Below, piece by piece: positions 19,599 to 29,696 of a stretch of 64,000 bases of DNA. Location of the stretch: NCBI GenBank assembly GCA_002632265.1, contig NQOV01000005.1, positions 246 to 64,245 on the forward strand, written 5' to 3'. This DNA comes from Rhodospirillaceae bacterium MC! (lineage in GTDB: Bacteria; Pseudomonadota; Alphaproteobacteria; MC1). Numbering within the stretch: position 1 is the first letter of the stretch; each line of letters starts with the position of its first letter. A program made the translations under genes and the position numbers. Under the pieces are notes generated by a model. The model was not told the DNA's origin, made no database searches, and saw nothing but the letters and a program-made list of their open reading frames with translations.

Positions 19599-19708
19599 AA
19601 GGATTGAGAGAAATTGGCTAAGATGTGCCTTAACTTAAGGCGACATGTACAACATGTTTACCTTAGCCCTAATTAAAGGTGCATATTAGCCCATTTATCA
19701 CAATCCTT
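19599..19708. repeat. Nested palindromic element A
   Basis: About 110 nt. Left arm AAGGATTGAGAGAAATTGGC... pairs imperfectly with the right arm ...CCATTTATCACAATCCTT. The apical hairpin is ACATGT-ACA-ACATGT and the conserved 3' bulge is TTACCTTAG. The right edge overlaps the stop codon of the minus-strand membrane-protein gene (19707). The left flank CCACCACCGCAAGCC is shared with element B, so A looks like a moved copy of B. Confidence 0.75.
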
Positions 19709-20369
19709 ATTGTTGGTATTTGTTCATGGTGGTATGCCTTAGATATTTTAACATCATGCCCCATAGAGAGCCTGATACTATCCAGAAGACGAATAGGGGA
19801 ATCCAGAGTATTAGGTAGTAGGTTAGCATGTTTGAGGTTGGGGGGATTTTTGTGCCTTGGGATGTTCCGCCTATTATTATTGGTAGGAGCATTAGGAAGA
19901 TTCCGAATACTCTGGCGAAACCTGATAGGGCTTGGGATAGGAGGTAGACTCCTGTTGTACTCATTATCATGCTTCCGAACCACCAGAATATAAAGGCGTG
20001 TTCTAGGTAGGATGGTAGGGTGTTTGGTAGTACTACTGCTATGCGGGCGTTTGTTGCTACGCAGAAGATGTAGAAGCAGGTTGCTCCCATTATACAGCCT
20101 ACTTTGAAGCTTGCTAGTCTGTCGAAGATTAGGAGTGTGAAGATACTTAGAACTATCATCATTAGATAACTAAATAGTAGGCAACCTATTAGGAGCGGTA
20201 TTAGATTTGGCACATGTTTTATGGGGTTGTATCCTGAGTCTTCTAGGAGTTGGGATATTATTACCCTGCCCCATAATAGTTGTGGTAAGAATATTATTAT
20301 ACCGCCTATCGTACCTGAAAATAATATACTTATTATGATACTTTTAAAAGAATATTGTATATCGTTCAT
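19707..20369 (-). CDS. Multipass membrane protein, possibly CbtA-like
   Basis: 220 aa with about six hydrophobic helices and few charged residues. I do not recognise it firmly. The C-terminal stretch (IPPTSNMLTYYLILWIPL followed by FWIVSGSLWGMM) is loosely like CbtA, a putative cobalt transporter subunit, but no cobalamin riboswitch or cobalt genes lie nearby. Its last codon overlaps palindromic element A. It is the last gene of a minus-strand run containing the TrpBA-like and O-antigen-ligase-like genes, separated from them by element B. Function unknown. Confidence 0.6.
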   Translation of the reverse strand: MNDIQYSFKSIIISILFSGTIGGIIIFLPQLLWGRVIISQLLEDSGYNPIKHVPNLIPLLIGCLLFSYLMMIVLSIFTLLIFDRLASFKVGCIMGATCFYIFCVATNARIAVVLPNTLPSYLEHAFIFWWFGSMIMSTTGVYLLSQALSGFARVFGIFLMLLPIIIGGTSQGTKIPPTSNMLTYYLILWIPLFVFWIVSGSLWGMMLKYLRHTTMNKYQQ

Positions 20370-20464: not shown

Positions 20465-20602
20465 CCACCACCGCAAGCCCTAGGATTGTGATAAATGGGC
20501 TAAGATGTACCTTTAATTAGGGCGACGTGTACTCACGTCTACATAAGCCCTAATTAAAGGTGCAGATTAGCCCATTTATCACAATCCTAGCTAGAGTGGT
20601 GG
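20465..20602. repeat. Nested palindromic element B
   Basis: Outer stem CCACCAC...CTAGGATTGTGATAAATGGGCTAA pairs with a nearly exact complement ending in CACAATCCTAGCTAGAGTGGTGG. The apical hairpin is CGTG-TACT-CACG with 3' bulge TCTACATAAG. The extreme right arm is formed by the last codons and stop of the 51-aa ORF (20591). A partial extra right arm (CAGATTAGCCCACTC) lies just before it at about 20448. Confidence 0.8.
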
Positions 20603-20746
20603 GAGCATGAAGATTATACGTAAGTAGGCAATCATGGTTGTTAGGAATGAGGGCAAGGTATTTACGAATAATAATGTTATTATAACCACTATTATAAAAA
20701 TAATTAGTAATCTTTTTATTAATTGATTTTTTGTCTCAAGAGCCAT
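20591..20746 (-). CDS. 51-aa small membrane protein
   Basis: A short ORF not assigned to any family. It starts 2 bp after the stop codon of the O-antigen-ligase-like gene. The peptide begins MALETKNQLIKRL and continues into one long hydrophobic helix (LLIIFIIVVIITLLF), then a second mildly hydrophobic part ending in MLPPL. Support for translation: it is placed tightly in an operon, has a charged-then-hydrophobic pattern, and its stop codon is abutted by element B, as those elements do at known genes. The weak point is the lack of a clear Shine-Dalgarno; translation would be coupled. Confidence 0.6.
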   Translation of the reverse strand: MALETKNQLIKRLLIIFIIVVIITLLFVNTLPSFLTTMIAYLRIIFMLPPL

Positions 20747-20748
20747 TT

Positions 20749-22050
20749 TTATTTTTGATCCTTAAATACTTCATATTCTAGATAGGTAATTACAAAGTTT
20801 GACATGCCTAGGGATATGGATATGGCTAGTACGAACCAGGTTTCCCACATGCCCCATGCTGTATTTTGTATGGCTGTAATGATTATAAAACTCATCATTA
20901 GAAGTAGTCTAGCATATTTTGGCAGGTTTTGGGAAAATATTTTCTTTAGAAGAGTTGCTAGGAATAAACAATAGGCTATTATGCCGAATAAACCGTATTC
21001 TATCCATATTTGCAAGGCTAGATTATGGGGATGATGTGTGAAATGTGTCATTACGCCTTTTACTACTCCGGGGCGAATCAATTTATTACTCATTATTGCT
21101 GTTATGTATCTTGTGCTATGAGAGCCATGACCGAATAACCACGCTTTATTTATGAGCATGTGTGAATATTCCCATATTACGTATCTATCTAATAAAGATC
21201 CTGTGGAATAGCTTTTGATTTTTTCCATTAGGGACGAGTCGTATAGCATACCGAAAAAGCTAGGGAAAAATAGATAGTATAGGGAGATTGTTATTACAAA
21301 AAACCAGAGTGCTAATTTGCGTGGAAGTATTAGCATGATTATCATGGCAAATACGGCCATTATTATGCCTGCGTATCCTGTATAGAAATAGTTTGTTATA
21401 ATGGACGCTAAGGAAATGAATATCAGAGCGAATACCAATTTAAACTTTCTTTGTTTGTACAGAATTATGGCTACACTCCCTAGTAAGCCTGATTTTAGAG
21501 TCTGCACTCCTTCGAGCCAAAATTGATTTTTGTAGTTTGTCTTCTTGTGAAATAGGATCTCGCTTATTTTACCTGCTAATAAGCTATCTAGTATCATTAA
21601 TACACTCACTAGTATTATGATGTAAGCTATATAATCACAGCCTTTTTCTCCGTATTTATTAAGGAATGTATGGAGGCGGACTAGCTTAAATTTATGGGGG
21701 CTTTTCTTGTGTTCTTGTGTTTGGCTTTCTATTTTTGGGCTATATTTTGAAAGCCAATATAATGCTTGAAATCCTAGAATAAATAGTAACAGATTAACAC
21801 TAATTGATACGCCCTTAAGGGGTCTTACTGCCCAAGATGACGCAATGAAAGACCATAGAACTATTAATAAAAGTATGGCTATACTTCTATTAAGAACGAG
21901 TTTACAGCGATGGATTAACATATATATTAAAGTAAATATCACAAAGGGAGAGTAAATAACTACTATGGCGTGTTTATTTATATAGGTAAACAAAACCGCA
22001 AGAAAAATCATCAACATAAATGTATAATTTCTTATTGCTAAATTATTCAT
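20749..22050 (-). CDS. O-antigen ligase / polymerase-like (Wzy_C) membrane protein
   Basis: 433 aa with about eleven hydrophobic helices. A periplasmic loop contains the FGHGSHSTR and THHPHNLALQIWIEYGLFG segments, the conserved His-Asn and E-x-G pattern of the Wzy_C O-antigen ligase family, which joins or polymerises surface polysaccharide on lipid carriers. The N-terminal WSFIASSWAVRPLKG block also fits. Its start overlaps the end of the TrpA-like gene by 8 bp (ATGAATAA), so translation is coupled. No other LPS genes are adjacent; a FemAB-like gene and an acyltransferase occur further away. The exact glycan is unknown. Confidence 0.8.
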   Translation of the reverse strand: MNNLAIRNYTFMLMIFLAVLFTYINKHAIVVIYSPFVIFTLIYMLIHRCKLVLNRSIAILLLIVLWSFIASSWAVRPLKGVSISVNLLLFILGFQALYWLSKYSPKIESQTQEHKKSPHKFKLVRLHTFLNKYGEKGCDYIAYIIILVSVLMILDSLLAGKISEILFHKKTNYKNQFWLEGVQTLKSGLLGSVAIILYKQRKFKLVFALIFISLASIITNYFYTGYAGIIMAVFAMIIMLILPRKLALWFFVITISLYYLFFPSFFGMLYDSSLMEKIKSYSTGSLLDRYVIWEYSHMLINKAWLFGHGSHSTRYITAIMSNKLIRPGVVKGVMTHFTHHPHNLALQIWIEYGLFGIIAYCLFLATLLKKIFSQNLPKYARLLLMMSFIIITAIQNTAWGMWETWFVLAISISLGMSNFVITYLEYEVFKDQK

Positions 22051-23335
22051 GGGGTTTTTCTCCTGTTGTTAAGATTGTTGTGGGTTCTTTCACGCCTGAT
22101 GATGATGGTTGTTGTTGTTGCTCTTTATCTTTGGGTTTATTATCCACTAAAATGGTATTGTCTACATTTTGGTTGTTTTGATCTGTTTTAGCTATCTCAT
22201 CCACATGTTCTTCTTTGGTTGGTTCGAGATTTTCTTGATCTGTATCATCGTTGATCTCTTCGTCCTCTTGGGTTTGTAAGGCTTTAAGTTCTTGCTCCCG
22301 TTCTTCTTTGGTTTTAAGATCAATTACATCGATTGTAACTTCATTATCAAGTAAATTATCGATGTCGATATGAGTATCTTCAGCAATGGGATTGAGATCT
22401 TTTTTTGCATAATCATCGAGTAACTTCTTCACGTTAATATACTTTTTGGCTTTTTCCACTACTCGATTAATTATGATATTATTTTGCTCATACAATACTT
22501 TATCTTGAAAGTTCTCAAGCTCTGATGTTTGCATATACTGTAATGTGGGCAAGCATGATTTAAAGGAAAATACGTCAATTTCATCGATAATACTAGCGAG
22601 ATTTTTAATGTTATCATCATCGGTAATATGTAAAGATCCGCATACGGAAATGCCTTTGGTAGTTTCTTCTTTAAGATGTTGAATTTCTTTAATTACTTGA
22701 TCATCAATGACAGATTTTACAAGACTTGTAGGATTATCATTATTAACCACTAGCACATTTTTATAAATCATAGATATATTATTGGCTGGATTGTTAAGGG
22801 CTAGTATGTGATTTTCATTGTGCTTTTTACCAAGGGAACAAGTGAACTCTACCTTATTTCGGCGTAAATAGGGAGAAATCTCGTAAAGTTTTGCCATGGG
22901 AAGATTTTGGATGTTAAGAACATTAATCCCACTTAAATGACATTTTTTGATGAATTTAGCAAGCCCATAATTAAAAACAGACGAAAAATAAGAACGTAAA
23001 ATAATAGGAATTCTACAACCTCGTTGACGAACTAAAGAAACTAAATCAAAACAATCAGATAAGTAAAAGTTATTGGATAAGGCGTGATCCATGGCTTTTT
23101 TAATGCTTGTATCTTCGAGAAAGGCGTCTTGAGTGGGGACAAATAATTCTATCATTTTTGCCCCATTGCTTTCCAGTTGAACAATCATTTCCGCACAGGC
23201 TGGAACGTTGGGTAATCCTGCCACTAACATGGGTAAAAAGAACGCACCTGCATTTTCTTTTTTGATGTATTCCACGTATTCATATAAGGTATCAAAACCT
23301 AATTGTTCTTTTTTTATTACTCCTTCAATAAACAT
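22043..23335 (-). CDS. Degenerate tryptophan-synthase-alpha-like protein with acidic tail
   Basis: 430 aa. Residues ~20-270 align with the TrpA TIM barrel: GAFFLPMLVAGLPNVPAC, then GAKMIELFVP (equivalent of catalytic Glu49 kept), DAFLEDTSIKKA where TrpA has a catalytic Asp60 (Glu occupies that column), and IPIILRSYFSSVFNYGLAKF. The phosphate-binding GF-GI and GSA loops are not recognisable (VCGSLHITDD, FKSCLP). The last ~160 residues are an added acidic and Gln-rich tail. It begins 4 bp after the TrpB-like gene, exactly as trpA follows trpB. Probably not a normal tryptophan synthase; role unknown. My alignment is by eye. Confidence 0.7.
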   Translation of the reverse strand: MFIEGVIKKEQLGFDTLYEYVEYIKKENAGAFFLPMLVAGLPNVPACAEMIVQLESNGAKMIELFVPTQDAFLEDTSIKKAMDHALSNNFYLSDCFDLVSLVRQRGCRIPIILRSYFSSVFNYGLAKFIKKCHLSGINVLNIQNLPMAKLYEISPYLRRNKVEFTCSLGKKHNENHILALNNPANNISMIYKNVLVVNNDNPTSLVKSVIDDQVIKEIQHLKEETTKGISVCGSLHITDDDNIKNLASIIDEIDVFSFKSCLPTLQYMQTSELENFQDKVLYEQNNIIINRVVEKAKKYINVKKLLDDYAKKDLNPIAEDTHIDIDNLLDNEVTIDVIDLKTKEEREQELKALQTQEDEEINDDTDQENLEPTKEEHVDEIAKTDQNNQNVDNTILVDNKPKDKEQQQQPSSSGVKEPTTILTTGEKPHE

Positions 23336-23339
23336 TTTC

Positions 23340-24548
23340 TTACAAACGTCCTTTAATATATTTAGATAGGGCTATCCTATCGTTTTCCGTGGGAGCATTT
23401 ACACTTAATAAAATGGTTTTAGATTTGTGCATTTCCTTTGCTCTTTCAAAAGCATATGCTAAAGAGTATCCTGTAAATACCGAGCTAATAATTCCCTCAT
23501 TACGTGCAAGAGATAAACAAGCCTCTAAAGCTTGAGTATAAGTTACTGATGTTGTTATAATCTTTTTTTGATCATAAAGATGAGCCACTTCAGGAGCGAT
23601 TACAGGATATACTAAATTTTCTATTTTTGTTTTATAACTGGTGATTGTGTTATGTTGGTTATGTAAATAGCGAGTTTTTAGCCCACAGGTAACCCCTACT
23701 TTTGTGTGTTCTAGTACGCCGTCAAAGGCTTGATCTTCAGGAAGACCAGCTTCAGATTTCGGCTCAACGGCTACGAATTCGAGATCAGGCTTATCGCAAA
23801 AGGAAGAATATAGCGATATAATATGCGAACCTTGAGAAAGGGGCGAGACAATTACATCAGGCAATTTATTATATTCTTCAAGGATCTGCTCACGGGCCTC
23901 GTTACCGATAATTTTTAAAATATCGTGAAAAATTCTAGAATAAGGTTGAGGCGACGCTGGCGAATAAGGGATGTAAAAATATTTATCAATGTTCTCATAC
24001 CACATGTTTAATGTTTCGGATGTGGTGGTTAGTAATTCCGAGTTATGATTTTCTGTAGTTACGATCTTCGCACCTAATAAACGCATGGCGTACATGTTTG
24101 ATTTACGTAAGGAATTCGACTTATTGGCTTCGATGTCCGCATTCATAACCGTACATTTTAAGCCTAAAGTAGCACAAGCCGAGGCCACTGCTACCCCGTT
24201 TGATCCTGCCAATGTTTCCGAAAGAATATGAGTTTCCCCAATCATTTTAGCAAACAAGGCCATGCCTAAGGATGTAACAAGATTCCCGTAAGCCGTATGT
24301 GTTTGATCTTCACGCTTTAAAAGGATCTTGGCACATTCGCCCTCATTTGATAGATTAGTGTTACGTGCTTCGGTTAATTTTGTTGGTCTTAAACCATAAT
24401 GAGATAATAAGAATTTTAATTCGTCAATATATTCTTGGGATTCTCTTATCTCATCCCACTTATTAGCAATGTAATCCAAACGGCCGGCTAATGTTTCAGG
24501 CACATACGCATCGCCATACTCACCACAAATTCCATTCATAATTGTCAT
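23340..24548 (-). CDS. Degenerate tryptophan-synthase-beta-like protein lacking the PLP lysine
   Basis: 402 aa, the length of TrpB, and alignable along its length: GEYGDAYVPETL, LLSHYGLRPTKL, LLKRED, LGMALFAKMIG, SETLAGSNGVAVASACATLG, MRLLGAKIV, PQPYSRIFHDILKIIG, and EGIISSVFTGYSLAYAFERA. Between the fixed anchors KRED and LG-AL-AK, where TrpB has HGGAHKTN with the Schiff-base lysine, this protein has HTAYGNLV, so Lys is replaced by Asn89. The phosphate loop GGGSNA is SQGSHI, and LSGRGDKD is VNAPTENDR. The Glu of the ETGAG motif remains. Likely a pseudoenzyme partner of the next gene, or an enzyme with new chemistry. Confidence 0.75.
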   Translation of the reverse strand: MTIMNGICGEYGDAYVPETLAGRLDYIANKWDEIRESQEYIDELKFLLSHYGLRPTKLTEARNTNLSNEGECAKILLKREDQTHTAYGNLVTSLGMALFAKMIGETHILSETLAGSNGVAVASACATLGLKCTVMNADIEANKSNSLRKSNMYAMRLLGAKIVTTENHNSELLTTTSETLNMWYENIDKYFYIPYSPASPQPYSRIFHDILKIIGNEAREQILEEYNKLPDVIVSPLSQGSHIISLYSSFCDKPDLEFVAVEPKSEAGLPEDQAFDGVLEHTKVGVTCGLKTRYLHNQHNTITSYKTKIENLVYPVIAPEVAHLYDQKKIITTSVTYTQALEACLSLARNEGIISSVFTGYSLAYAFERAKEMHKSKTILLSVNAPTENDRIALSKYIKGRL

Positions 24549-24732: not shown

Positions 24733-25119
24733 AGAGAATGGATAAGTTAGCCACTATGCACTTCTTAAAGGTGCATAGTGGCTATCCATAAAAGCTTATA
24801 AAAGCTCGGAAAATTAGTCAATATGTGCCTTTAAGAAGTACGACGTGTATAACCTTAATACATTAGTACTTCTTAAAGGTGCATAGTGGCTATCCGTACA
24901 AGCTTATAAAAGCTCGGAAAATTAGTCAATATGTGCCTTTAAGAAGTACGACGTGTATAATCAACTACATTAGTACTTCTTAAAGGTGCATAGTGGCTAT
25001 CCATAAAAGCTTATAAAAGCTCGGAAAATTAGTCAATATGTACCTTTAAGAAGTACGACGTGTATAACCAACTACATTAGTACTTCTTAAAGGTGCATAG
25101 TGGCTAATTTTCCGAGCTT
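24733..25119. repeat. Array C of nested palindromic elements (three tandem units)
   Basis: Three tandem units of 107-108 bp (right arms starting at 24761, 24869, 24976, 25083, so four right arms). Each holds TTAGTCAATATGTGCC..GAAGTAC, apical TGTA/TACA, bulge ACTACATTAG and GTACTTCTTAAAGGTGCATA. Only the copy touching the asmA-like stop (25120) has fully matching outer arms (AAAAGCTCGGAAAATTAG with CTAATTTTCCGAGCTTTT). It would act as a giant terminator for the minus-strand gene. The rest of the 571-bp gap holds the operon promoter near 24650. Confidence 0.85.
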
Positions 25120-28100
25120 TTATTTGTTGTCGATTGTTTTGGATGGAGATACCAAGCTATCTCTTAGGGTGAACCAGTGTTGACTAGATCCTTTTGTTAC
25201 TAGGCCGTTGGCTTGGATTTGGCTTTTTTCTAGGTTTACTATTCCGTCTAGTGTGCCTTTTACTAGGGAGTTGGAGATTGTGCCGTTGGAGAATTTTAAT
25301 AGTCCTGTGTTTATGTCGAAAGGCGAGCTAAAACTGTATGGGGATTGCTTGTTGTTTATTAGTGTTAGGATATCGTAGATACTTCCTAGTGGTGCTAGGG
25401 TTGTTGGTTTTTTGCGTCCTAGATATTGGATGTTGGAAAATGAGACATTACCATTACCGTTTATGTTGTCGAATATTTGTTGGATATTGTAGCCGTAACC
25501 TTTTATGTTACCTTTTGATGTAAACTGTCCTTGAATGCCGACTTTTGGCAAAATTGTTTCTATGTCGATGTTATCGGTTGTCCATGTTAGTGATGATGTG
25601 GGCATGGCGGTATTTGTATCCCATGTGAATTGAATGCTTGCGGTGGGTTTTATTAGGCTATCTGTTGTATTATCTTCATAGCTGGCGAAATTTAGCTCGG
25701 TATTATCTAGGCTAAAAATACCACTTACTGCATTTGCTTTTAGAGATACATTTTCTATGTATGTTTTGTTGATGTAGAATTTCTTAACATTTAGCTTAAG
25801 ATCCATGTTGAGATTTTGCATTAACTTAATTAACGGCGGTTGATAATCGTTCACATTTATAACCGTGTTATCATTGCTATTTGCTGTTACGGTATTTATA
25901 GCTGTGGGATTGGCTGGTGCAGAATTTAAAGCTTGATCTGTGGTGGGAGCATTCGCTATAGTATTAGGATCTGTATTAGGATCTGTAGAATTATTGCTTG
26001 TGGCTTGATCTGTGGTGGTGGGCGTATCTGTTGGATTGGCGATGTTTAAATTATCCACATTCTCATTATCTTGAATTTTGAGCGTATCTGTTTGCACATT
26101 ATTATCGACGTGTTTAACTACGGAATAATTAACAACCGCTTGCGGTTTTTTCGTATAAATATTTTTTAAGATATCATAGGAAAATTCTTCCGTATTAAGA
26201 TTCATGGCTAGATTGGGGATCTCTTTCGTTGTATCCAAGGTAATATTGCCGTCGATATCGCTCTTGCCGATAGTAGCGTCCAACTCTGAAAGATTATAAA
26301 CGCCGTCCAACTGTGATCTTTTAATTACCGCCGATAGGGCAAGCTCTTTGCTTGGGGTATTGGGCTTAATATTAGTATATCCTAAAGTATTAAGTAGATT
26401 ATTGACGTTATCATCGGATAAATTCAAGACCATGGGATACATAACGCCAGTTTGCCAAGATCCGCCCGTGCGTATGCGTCCTTTCATGGTGCTATATGAG
26501 AATATCATGTCGGCATTGGTGTTTTTTACTCCGCCGTCAATGGTAATTACTGCATTAGCTGGAATATTACTTGGTAAGATGTTACTATCGAGAGCATTGG
26601 CACTATCTTTTAAGTTTGCTTTAATAATCACATTGTTAAAGTTGGGATCGCTAAAGATCTCATCGATCTGCCCTTGAACAGAGATAGAACCGTCGCCAAT
26701 GGGCATGGCTTTAAAGTGGTTGATCTTTAAATCTCCTTGATCAATGGATAAATCAAGATTAACATCCTTTAAGGCAATACCTGATAAGGTCGCATCTGTG
26801 GAAATCAACTTAATGGAAGTCGGCGAATCAAAAGCCTCTTGACTAAAGACCTTAGAGAGTCCTCCTGTAAAAGAATTGTTTTCTACAGAAGATATAGTTT
26901 GAATAATATAAGGCACCCAATCATCAAACGGGATAGTGCTAAAACTACCAGCCATATGCAATTCTTGATCGTTAGTAAAGCTTTTAGTAAGAGATCCTTT
27001 AAAGTTTAAAGATCCCATGTTAAAAACTAAGCTTTTAAGTTGTAATTTATGGCTATCCATTAGGACGTTAGTTCTAAAGGACGCATTTAATTCATTATTA
27101 GTGGTGGTTTTCGCTTGAATTCCCAACCACTTCAAGGTATTTGTAGGATTGTTACTATTAAACAAGATAGTACCGTCAAGCATGGGTTCGCCCTTGCTGG
27201 AATGAATGAATCCGAACAGCTTAAAAGACGCATCCCCTGGAAAACTTGCCGACGCTTCCTTAATTAGAATTTCGTTAGATTGAACTTTTGCCTTAAGGAT
27301 GAAATCCTTAGCGGTGGCGTTTAAGATGTTAATGGTGCTTGCTTTGTTTTCGATGTTAATATCTAAATGCTTAGGAAGTACCCAACTGACCTTGTATTTA
27401 GTCTTCTTAACTACTGGATTTTTCATATTATTAACTAAAGCTGATCGGCTACTTATGGGAGTTATTGCCGATATCCTATGAATAAGCACATCCTTTCCCA
27501 AGTTCGGATTGTTATCTTCAGGATGAATAGTGTTAATGTACGATATTAAAGAATTAATATCAAAATTTTTACTGGTAGTTTGAATATTTATTTGGGCGTC
27601 TGATACTTCTTCTTTTAGTGGCACATAAGAAATCTTACCATTGGTTACTTGCGATAAACTATTAATAGTAAATTTAGAGCTAGCCCAAGATTTATCATTG
27701 CTTTCTTTTAATTCAAGATTAATATCTAAAGGGATATCTAAAGCCACTGGCGGACTACTTAAATTTAATTCTGATAGTAATTTATCGGTAGAGTTAACTT
27801 TAATGTGTGCTTTTATGCTATTGGCTTTAAATAAAGCATCACTAATGCGAGAATCAAGTCGACCAGTTAAAGCACCGTTTAATAAGTTGAAATCAACCAA
27901 GGTATAAATGGAACTTTTCGAGCCTGTGCGATACATATTGCCATGTAAGGCGATATCTAAGCCTTTCCAATTGAGCGTAATAAGACCATTTAAAGAATCC
28001 TTTTTTAAGCCTAGGTTGGTATTAATCCCATTTATGCTATTTTCTGATTTTGAAATATAATTGGAAATAACTAAAGTTCCATTGGTAATGTTTAAATGGG

Positions 28101-28551
28101 TAAAGCCTAATTTAGAAATGGAGAATAAAGTATCGGTTAAGTTGGCAAGTGGCGATTCTCCTTTTTCTGTATCGTTGGTTATGTAGATCTTAGGATTGTA
28201 TAGGGATATATTATCAATGGAATAAATATTTCCACGCAATATTTGGGAAATACTAACGCCCACATGAACTTTAGGGATAATAGCTAAATTTGAGTTATAA
28301 CTTCCCATAGGCGAAAGCACTCGCACATCGGTTATGGTTATGCCCACATGGGGAAATAAGGAAACTGTAGTCTTGCCTGTAATTTGTACCGTTCTGCCAA
28401 TGGTTTTAGATATGGTATTAATTACCTGATCTTTAGATAAATGCCACTTGATACCTGCAGGTAAAACACCGAATAATAAAATTGCCACTATCACAATTAG
28501 GGCGATAAATGTAAGCATATATTTTACAGGGGTGCTAAATTTACTAAACAT
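25120..28551 (-). CDS. AsmA family protein
   Basis: 1143 aa. A membrane anchor at about residues 11-31 is followed by an AsmA-type N-terminal domain (AGIKWHLSKDQVINTIS..., then GRTVQITGKTTVSLFPHVGITITDVRV) and a very long beta-rich periplasmic region. A Thr/Asn/Pro-rich low-complexity linker (about residues 840-900) splits the body from the C-terminal AsmA domain (FTSKGNIKGYGYNIQQIFDNINGNGNVSFS). It belongs to the class proposed to carry phospholipids toward the outer membrane. It is a distant paralogue of the 1807-5586 protein. Located downstream of mraY; the stop codon is abutted by array C. Confidence 0.85.
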   Translation of the reverse strand: MFSKFSTPVKYMLTFIALIVIVAILLFGVLPAGIKWHLSKDQVINTISKTIGRTVQITGKTTVSLFPHVGITITDVRVLSPMGSYNSNLAIIPKVHVGVSISQILRGNIYSIDNISLYNPKIYITNDTEKGESPLANLTDTLFSISKLGFTHLNITNGTLVISNYISKSENSINGINTNLGLKKDSLNGLITLNWKGLDIALHGNMYRTGSKSSIYTLVDFNLLNGALTGRLDSRISDALFKANSIKAHIKVNSTDKLLSELNLSSPPVALDIPLDINLELKESNDKSWASSKFTINSLSQVTNGKISYVPLKEEVSDAQINIQTTSKNFDINSLISYINTIHPEDNNPNLGKDVLIHRISAITPISSRSALVNNMKNPVVKKTKYKVSWVLPKHLDINIENKASTINILNATAKDFILKAKVQSNEILIKEASASFPGDASFKLFGFIHSSKGEPMLDGTILFNSNNPTNTLKWLGIQAKTTTNNELNASFRTNVLMDSHKLQLKSLVFNMGSLNFKGSLTKSFTNDQELHMAGSFSTIPFDDWVPYIIQTISSVENNSFTGGLSKVFSQEAFDSPTSIKLISTDATLSGIALKDVNLDLSIDQGDLKINHFKAMPIGDGSISVQGQIDEIFSDPNFNNVIIKANLKDSANALDSNILPSNIPANAVITIDGGVKNTNADMIFSYSTMKGRIRTGGSWQTGVMYPMVLNLSDDNVNNLLNTLGYTNIKPNTPSKELALSAVIKRSQLDGVYNLSELDATIGKSDIDGNITLDTTKEIPNLAMNLNTEEFSYDILKNIYTKKPQAVVNYSVVKHVDNNVQTDTLKIQDNENVDNLNIANPTDTPTTTDQATSNNSTDPNTDPNTIANAPTTDQALNSAPANPTAINTVTANSNDNTVINVNDYQPPLIKLMQNLNMDLKLNVKKFYINKTYIENVSLKANAVSGIFSLDNTELNFASYEDNTTDSLIKPTASIQFTWDTNTAMPTSSLTWTTDNIDIETILPKVGIQGQFTSKGNIKGYGYNIQQIFDNINGNGNVSFSNIQYLGRKKPTTLAPLGSIYDILTLINNKQSPYSFSSPFDINTGLLKFSNGTISNSLVKGTLDGIVNLEKSQIQANGLVTKGSSQHWFTLRDSLVSPSKTIDNK

Positions 28552-28610: not shown

Positions 28611-29696
28611 CTATCGCAATTTAAGAGTGATTAAGCCAAGAATAGCAAAAATAATGGCTAAGATCCAAAATCTTACAACAACCTTAGTTTCTGCCCAGCC
28701 TAGCTGTTCGAAGTGATGATGAATGGGGGCCATTTTAAAGATTCTCTTTTTGCGTAATTTATAACTTCCAACTTGCAAGATCACAGATACAGTCTCCATA
28801 ACAAACACACCGCCAACAACCGCCCATACGATTTCATGCTTGGTAATGAGTGCTAACGATCCTAAAACACCACCGATTGCAAGGCTACCAGTATCGCCCA
28901 TGAATATTTCAGCAGGTTTGGCATTGTACCATAAAAAACCCATGGTAGCCCCAATTAGTGATCCGCAGAACACCGCTACTTCGGCAATGTTCGGAATGTA
29001 TGTGAATTGTAAATAATGGGCATAATCGAGATGTCCGATAGCGTAAGCAATGATGATAAATACTGATGTCGCAATAATAATCGGCACTGCCGCCAAGCCG
29101 TCCAAACCGTCTGTAAGGTTTACCGCATTGGATGAGCCAACAATGATAAATAATCCCACAATAGGGAAAAAGCTCCCAAAGTTTATAAATACTTTCTTAA
29201 AAAATGGTATCTCTAAAGTGTGCGATATGTTGCTAGGTTGAAAATACATGATTAAAAATACAGTGATCACACCGAAGACAAACTGTCCTAGTAATTTTAA
29301 TTTACCGCTTAAACCGTCGCTCGTTTTTTTCATAACCTTAAGATAATCATCTAAGAATCCTAAGAATCCGTAAGCTATCATGATAAATAAAAGAATCCAT
29401 ACGAAACAATTGGCATAGTTTATCCACATTAAAGAGCTGATTGTAGTTGATATTAAGATCATAAATCCGCCCATGGTCGGCGTGCCTGCTTTAGCTAAAT
29501 GAGTTTGTGGTCCATCTAAGCGAATGGGCTGTCCCTTGCCTTGTTTGATTCTTAACCAATTAATTAATTTAGGCGAAATAAGAAACATAATAATTAACGA
29601 TGTTAACACCGCCCCAGCCAGACGAAAAGTCGTATAGTGAAATATGTTTAATATATTTAACATATTAGTGTAATGTTCGGCTAGAAAATAAAACAT
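28611..29696 (-). CDS. mraY: Phospho-N-acetylmuramoyl-pentapeptide transferase
   Basis: 361 aa, ten membrane helices. It transfers phospho-MurNAc-pentapeptide to undecaprenyl phosphate, making lipid I. Motifs: KAGTPTMGG, FLDDYLKVMKK, NLTDGLDGLA (catalytic Asp residues), MGDTGSLAIGG and APIHHHFEQLGW. All key residues are present and length is exact. Unusual context: mraY normally sits in the dcw cluster between murF and murD, but here it lies between a SPOR protein and an AsmA protein. Confidence 0.96.
   Translation of the reverse strand: MFYFLAEHYTNMLNILNIFHYTTFRLAGAVLTSLIIMFLISPKLINWLRIKQGKGQPIRLDGPQTHLAKAGTPTMGGFMILISTTISSLMWINYANCFVWILLFIMIAYGFLGFLDDYLKVMKKTSDGLSGKLKLLGQFVFGVITVFLIMYFQPSNISHTLEIPFFKKVFINFGSFFPIVGLFIIVGSSNAVNLTDGLDGLAAVPIIIATSVFIIIAYAIGHLDYAHYLQFTYIPNIAEVAVFCGSLIGATMGFLWYNAKPAEIFMGDTGSLAIGGVLGSLALITKHEIVWAVVGGVFVMETVSVILQVGSYKLRKKRIFKMAPIHHHFEQLGWAETKVVVRFWILAIIFAILGLITLKLR

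Follow-up and report, generated by a model that had tools for sequence, protein, structure and literature searches.

Tryptophan synthase serves as the standard example of how two active sites can be coupled allosterically. The β reaction of TrpB needs the PLP lysine, and the α reaction of TrpA needs the IGP phosphate site. On the 64,000-nucleotide stretch of contig NQOV01000005.1 analyzed here (the window), the genome of Rhodospirillaceae bacterium MC! encodes a TrpB-like and a TrpA-like protein in which both sites have changed, and this raises the question of what such a pair is kept for. The pair is a real, unusual second trpBA copy, found in a single genome and probably a pair of pseudoenzymes. 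This divergent copy probably owes its retention to a role outside tryptophan synthesis.

Organization of the locus

Three minus-strand genes lie head to tail in the order TrpB-like, TrpA-like, Wzy-like. The TrpB paralogue (23340..24548, minus strand, 402 aa) belongs to the fold type II TrpB fold and carries N89 at the K87 column. A spacer of 4 nt, GAAA by direct reading (23336..23339, minus strand), separates its stop from the start of the TrpA paralogue (22043..23335, minus strand, 430 aa), which consists of an α-type barrel at residues ~13–301 and an acidic C-terminal extension. The third gene encodes an O-antigen ligase/polymerase-like membrane protein (20749..22050, minus strand, 433 aa, Pfam Wzy_C 47.3 bits), and, by the ORF coordinates, shares its first 8 nt with the 3' end of the gene for the TrpA paralogue. 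Spacer and overlap together give the three genes an operon-like packing. The TrpA-like frame, the trpB–trpA order, and the O-antigen-ligase-like gene in the same packed group are thus as the original prediction had them. The 4-bp spacing, which it had taken as preserved, is not inherited from the canonical pair: the trpB and trpA genes of the canonical copy in the same genome are 138 nt apart, and the distance varies among relatives.

Upstream of the TrpB-like gene, the intergenic gap holds a 107-bp unit that carries long inverted repeats and is repeated in tandem ~3.2 times (24760–25106); part of this unit recurs in weaker copies on two contigs of the genome, C2 and C4. Upstream of the gene pair, positions 25120–28551 encode a 1143-aa AsmA-family protein beside mraY (28611–29696). 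Downstream of the Wzy-like gene, a long palindromic element was recognized by eye at 20470–20610, with a short loop between CCTAATTAAAGGT and its reverse complement; it resembles in style the repeats upstream of the TrpB-like gene. A membrane-like protein encoded at 19707–20369 weakly resembles CbtA, a proposed subunit of a cobalt transporter (24.9 bits, under the family's cut-off).

The canonical tryptophan synthase of the genome

The genome comprises 2.05 Mb in 19 contigs. Another contig (C18) carries an intact canonical TrpB (402 aa, with the motif GAHKIN) and TrpA (263 aa) within a trpC-trpF-trpB-trpA cluster, as judged by the trpF-like and trpC-like neighbors. Because of this intact set, the pair in the window is a second copy that is not needed for tryptophan. 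The canonical TrpB is at most 70% identical, in the best tblastn segment, to that of an uncultured alphaproteobacterium, and its best matches are mostly Alphaproteobacteria and Micavibrio-like MAGs. Among the genomes searched, none is closer to the source genome than the same class.

Active site of the TrpB paralogue

The TrpB paralogue reaches 245 bits with NCBIfam TIGR00263, compared with an equivalog cut-off of 392. The position of the PLP lysine lies in a colinear ungapped block (KREDQTHTAYGNLVTSLG versus KREDLNHTGAHKINNALG), so the loss of K87 is not an alignment accident; no lysine occurs at or near this position. K87 is kept in 129 of the 130 aligned TrpBs, with the TrpB paralogue as the sole exception. 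Further substitutions are H86G, Q114S, H115N, D305V, E350F, and R379P; G378 is replaced as well. The PLP phosphate loop GGGSN is altered by G232S, G233Q, and N236H, the residue at the pyridine nitrogen (S/C377) is changed by S377N, and the substrate loop is altered too. The substitutions K167L and R175N are also present, and E109 is kept. As read from these positions, the TrpB paralogue cannot form a PLP Schiff base, and most of the contacts to PLP phosphate, pyridine, and substrate are gone. Among near-invariant TrpB columns, the paralogue keeps 51 of 116 and the canonical TrpB of the same genome 112. The losses are alike inside and outside the active-site list (9/24 versus 42/92 columns kept, p 0.5) and hence do not mark the surfaces under selection.

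Active site of the TrpA paralogue

The TrpA paralogue matches Pfam Trp_syntA with 80 bits (E 1.4e-22) over residues 26–178 and scores 78.2 bits against the NCBIfam trpA equivalog cut-off of 102.35. The equivalent of E49 is kept as E63, as had been predicted, together with Y102, P53, and D56. The D60 column carries E74, which had been taken as a sign of degeneracy; this reading does not hold, for 9 of the 88 TrpA rows in the alignment carry Glu at this column, so that both catalytic carboxylates are chemically preserved. Natural D60E variants (PVAEG or PIAEG) that otherwise keep the phosphate motifs come mostly from records labeled Bacillota.

The predicted absence of the phosphate-binding loops was borne out. 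The IGP phosphate motifs GxTG, GFG, and GS are gone because of G181V, T183N, G184N, G211S, G213H, and G234F, and Y175 (Y175I) and loop 6 are lost in addition. Residues 170–227 contain no glycine at all, which makes the loss of the GxTG loop independent of the alignment. Of 29 near-invariant TrpA columns, 10 are kept in the paralogue and 25 in the canonical TrpA of the same genome. The two subunits have therefore degenerated together in their active sites, in line with the original prediction: among 130 TrpBs, K87 is lost only here, and TrpA is left without its phosphate site. Lacking both the PLP lysine and the IGP phosphate site, the pair cannot be a tryptophan synthase of known mechanism.

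Folds and the C-terminal extension

Both structure predictions used canonical proteins as their input alignments and so lean towards the canonical fold; with this bias, the AlphaFold2 model of the TrpB paralogue (pLDDT 84.6, pTM 0.87) matches PDB TrpB chains with a Z of about 50 and an rmsd of 2.2–2.6, and that of the TrpA paralogue features all eight strands at residues 36–255. The best PDB match of the latter is Legionella TrpA 5kmy, with a Z of 29.1 and an rmsd of 2.4 over 259 residues (~13–302 of the model). The TrpA fold can be aligned up to model residue 301. The C-terminal extension (residues 301–430; 22046..22435, minus strand) features a helix at 337–361, and residues 366–430 are predicted to be disordered. 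Residues 300–430 contain 36 D+E compared with 15 K+R, and the extension has no copy elsewhere in the genome, as judged by a search of that genome. The extension had been described as ~160 acidic and Gln-rich residues: its acidity is confirmed, its length is closer to 130, and Gln-richness is mild outside one QQQQ.

Some chemistry may conceivably survive in the TrpA paralogue, given the E49 equivalent and the acid at position 60. The pair could accordingly be a neofunctionalized enzyme, in which the Glu/acid pair of the TrpA-like protein would catalyze another reaction on a non-phosphorylated substrate and the TrpB-like protein would serve as a PLP-free activating partner. The retained E63, an acid at E74 that normal TrpAs also use, the conserved Y102, P53, and D56, and the intact predicted barrel are consistent with such an enzyme; it is nevertheless unlikely, because the phosphate loops, Y175, and loop 6 are gone, only 10 of the 29 near-invariant columns are kept, and no relative turned up whose reaction is known. 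The most likely reading, with about an even chance, is that the pair is an old extra trpBA copy that no longer makes tryptophan and persists as a co-inherited, non-catalytic pair working by binding or scaffolding. The two proteins would have lost catalysis and kept their folds, and would act by binding, either as a ligand sensor or as a scaffold, with the acidic tail of the TrpA paralogue as a flexible interaction arm.

Relatives and origin

The gene pair was found in one genome. No orthologue of the TrpB paralogue occurs in GTDB contigs, and none of the TrpA paralogue in viral contigs; plasmids gave only TrpA matches of ~24% identity. Searches likewise found no orthologues of the pair in two sets of 96 and 385 genomes of the class, in a 398-genome sample of the phylum (E 1e-14), and in the 38 nearest named genomes (nearest by canonical TrpB). 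The matches at class level look like canonical TrpB and TrpA by score and identity (≤35%).

A family tree was calculated to trace the TrpB paralogue to its parent. The branch is saturated (length 10) and has no supported placement; hence, duplication and transfer cannot be told apart. In one relative (G404), an additional TrpB was considered as a parallel case and dismissed, as this protein retains the lysine and is accompanied by a normal TrpA.

Retention of both frames

Neutral decay was simulated from the genome's own trpB and trpA down to 33% and 25% identity, respectively, at ~35% GC, with 300 runs each. The simulated genes accumulated a mean of 17 stops (trpB) and 14 stops (trpA), and 0 of 300 runs ended with zero stops. 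Both paralogue frames are full-length and open at 25–33% identity, which is incompatible with neutral decay, and both genes use codons much as the neighboring genes do. The pair might instead consist of decaying pseudogenes of a duplicated trpBA, a reading to which the missing orthologues and the many lost near-invariant residues would lend themselves; two full-length frames at this level of divergence, a simulation that never left a frame open, and normal codon usage make it highly improbable. We conclude from this single genome that both frames were probably selected. The intact state of both frames favors the repurposing proposed in the original prediction over decay; the envelope part of that proposal found no matching synteny in relatives.

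Proposed pairing of the two paralogues

The non-catalytic pair would retain contact between its TrpB-like and TrpA-like members. A putative α–β complex is plausible from the gene order, the tight spacing, and the fact that both subunits lost catalysis. In both paralogues, the positions of the classical interface were approximated by segments of the Salmonella enzyme. In these approximate segments, identity of the TrpB paralogue to the TrpB of its own genome is 14/51 (~27%), compared with 100/343 in the rest of the protein; for the TrpA paralogue, the values are 8/50 and 33/212. With segments of this kind, the interface of neither protein exceeds the remaining positions in conservation, and interface conservation was dropped as evidence for a complex.

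Interface columns of this kind would also be seen if the two paralogues were used independently, with no contact and an operon shared by descent only. The B and A genes, however, lie closer together than those of the canonical copy (4 versus 138 nt), and both subunits lost catalysis; independent use is hence rather improbable. Alternatively, one or both paralogues might regulate the tryptophan synthase of the same genome by forming mixed complexes with canonical TrpA or TrpB, in analogy to plant TSB-like. Such a regulator has a documented precedent, as a dead TrpB paralogue activates TrpA in eudicots (PMC12727527), and the intact trpBA of the genome would supply the partners. TSB-like, however, keeps 69% of the interface (PMC12727527), compared with ~27% here at approximate positions, where K167L and R175N are found in addition. 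D305, with a proposed role in TrpB activation, is a Val, and a partner TrpA paralogue is encoded directly beside the TrpB paralogue. A regulator of this kind is improbable.

Comparison with known systems

Canonical TrpA and TrpB (TIGR00262, TIGR00263; PF00290, PF00291) share with the pair the trpB–trpA order and both folds, and homology is detectable over the whole TrpB paralogue and the N-terminal half of the TrpA paralogue. In contrast to the canonical proteins, the paralogues lack the PLP lysine and the IGP phosphate site, fall below both equivalog cut-offs, carry an acidic C-terminal extension, and are encoded outside the trpC-trpF-trpB-trpA cluster. Automatic annotation may call such genes trpA and trpB, although the NCBI equivalog cut-offs would reject them.

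In Chlamydia trachomatis TrpRBA, TrpA is thought to be unable to process IGP and still serves its TrpB. This TrpB is active and converts indole to tryptophan, whereas the TrpB paralogue described here is without the cofactor lysine. Ocular strains of C. trachomatis have a truncated TrpA (PMC8262981). Maize BX1/IGL are standalone TrpA homologues used outside tryptophan synthesis, like the TrpA paralogue, and BX1 is among the best structural matches of its model (Z 27.2). However, BX1 is an active IGP lyase, and the TrpA paralogue has no phosphate site.

The closest precedent of the pair is the TSB-like pseudoenzyme of eudicots. This dead TrpB paralogue activates TSA, with release of indole, and has retained 69% of the TSB interface residues; its two key changes are the active-site Glu (T. 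maritima E105) to Ala or similar and the allosteric Asp to Glu (PMC12727527). Both cases share the loss of catalysis in a TrpB paralogue next to a canonical TrpB that is still in the genome. The lesion here is of another kind and goes deeper: E109 (E. coli numbering), the counterpart of the Glu altered in plants, is intact, while the PLP lysine has disappeared along with many further residues. The partner TrpA has degenerated as well, whereas the partner of TSB-like is canonical TSA. No bacterial pseudoenzyme trpBA pair of this kind was found in a search limited largely to open-access papers, which makes this a weak absence. If true, a pair with both sites dead and both folds kept would separate the binding or allosteric role from the chemistry, and would carry the plant dead-TrpB finding over to bacteria, with both subunits affected together.

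Possible role at the envelope

A possible link of the pair to surface-polysaccharide assembly is given by the next gene, which overlaps it by 8 nt and encodes the only confident O-antigen ligase/polymerase-like protein of the genome. As the weaker step of the proposed mechanism, the pair may act on surface-polysaccharide assembly or be co-expressed with it. Put together, a sensor or scaffold derived from a dead α–β complex would control this assembly via the Wzy-like protein, with the acidic tail making the contact; this full scheme is doubtful. The envelope role is weakly suggested by the order of the overlapping genes, its sole basis.

The conserved synteny with the O-antigen ligase gene that the original prediction had looked to was not seen: none of 12 loci of ~3.5 kb each around Wzy matches in relatives has a Trp-like gene beside it, and the searches gave no orthologues of the pair. 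In the nearest genomes, the Wzy-like protein has only partial matches of 22–30% identity. Within its own genome, it is the only protein with a Wzy_C match above the family cut-off. A second, weaker Wzy_C match (22.7 bits, below the cut-off) is located at 110729–110998 of contig C1 in an open frame of 719 aa.
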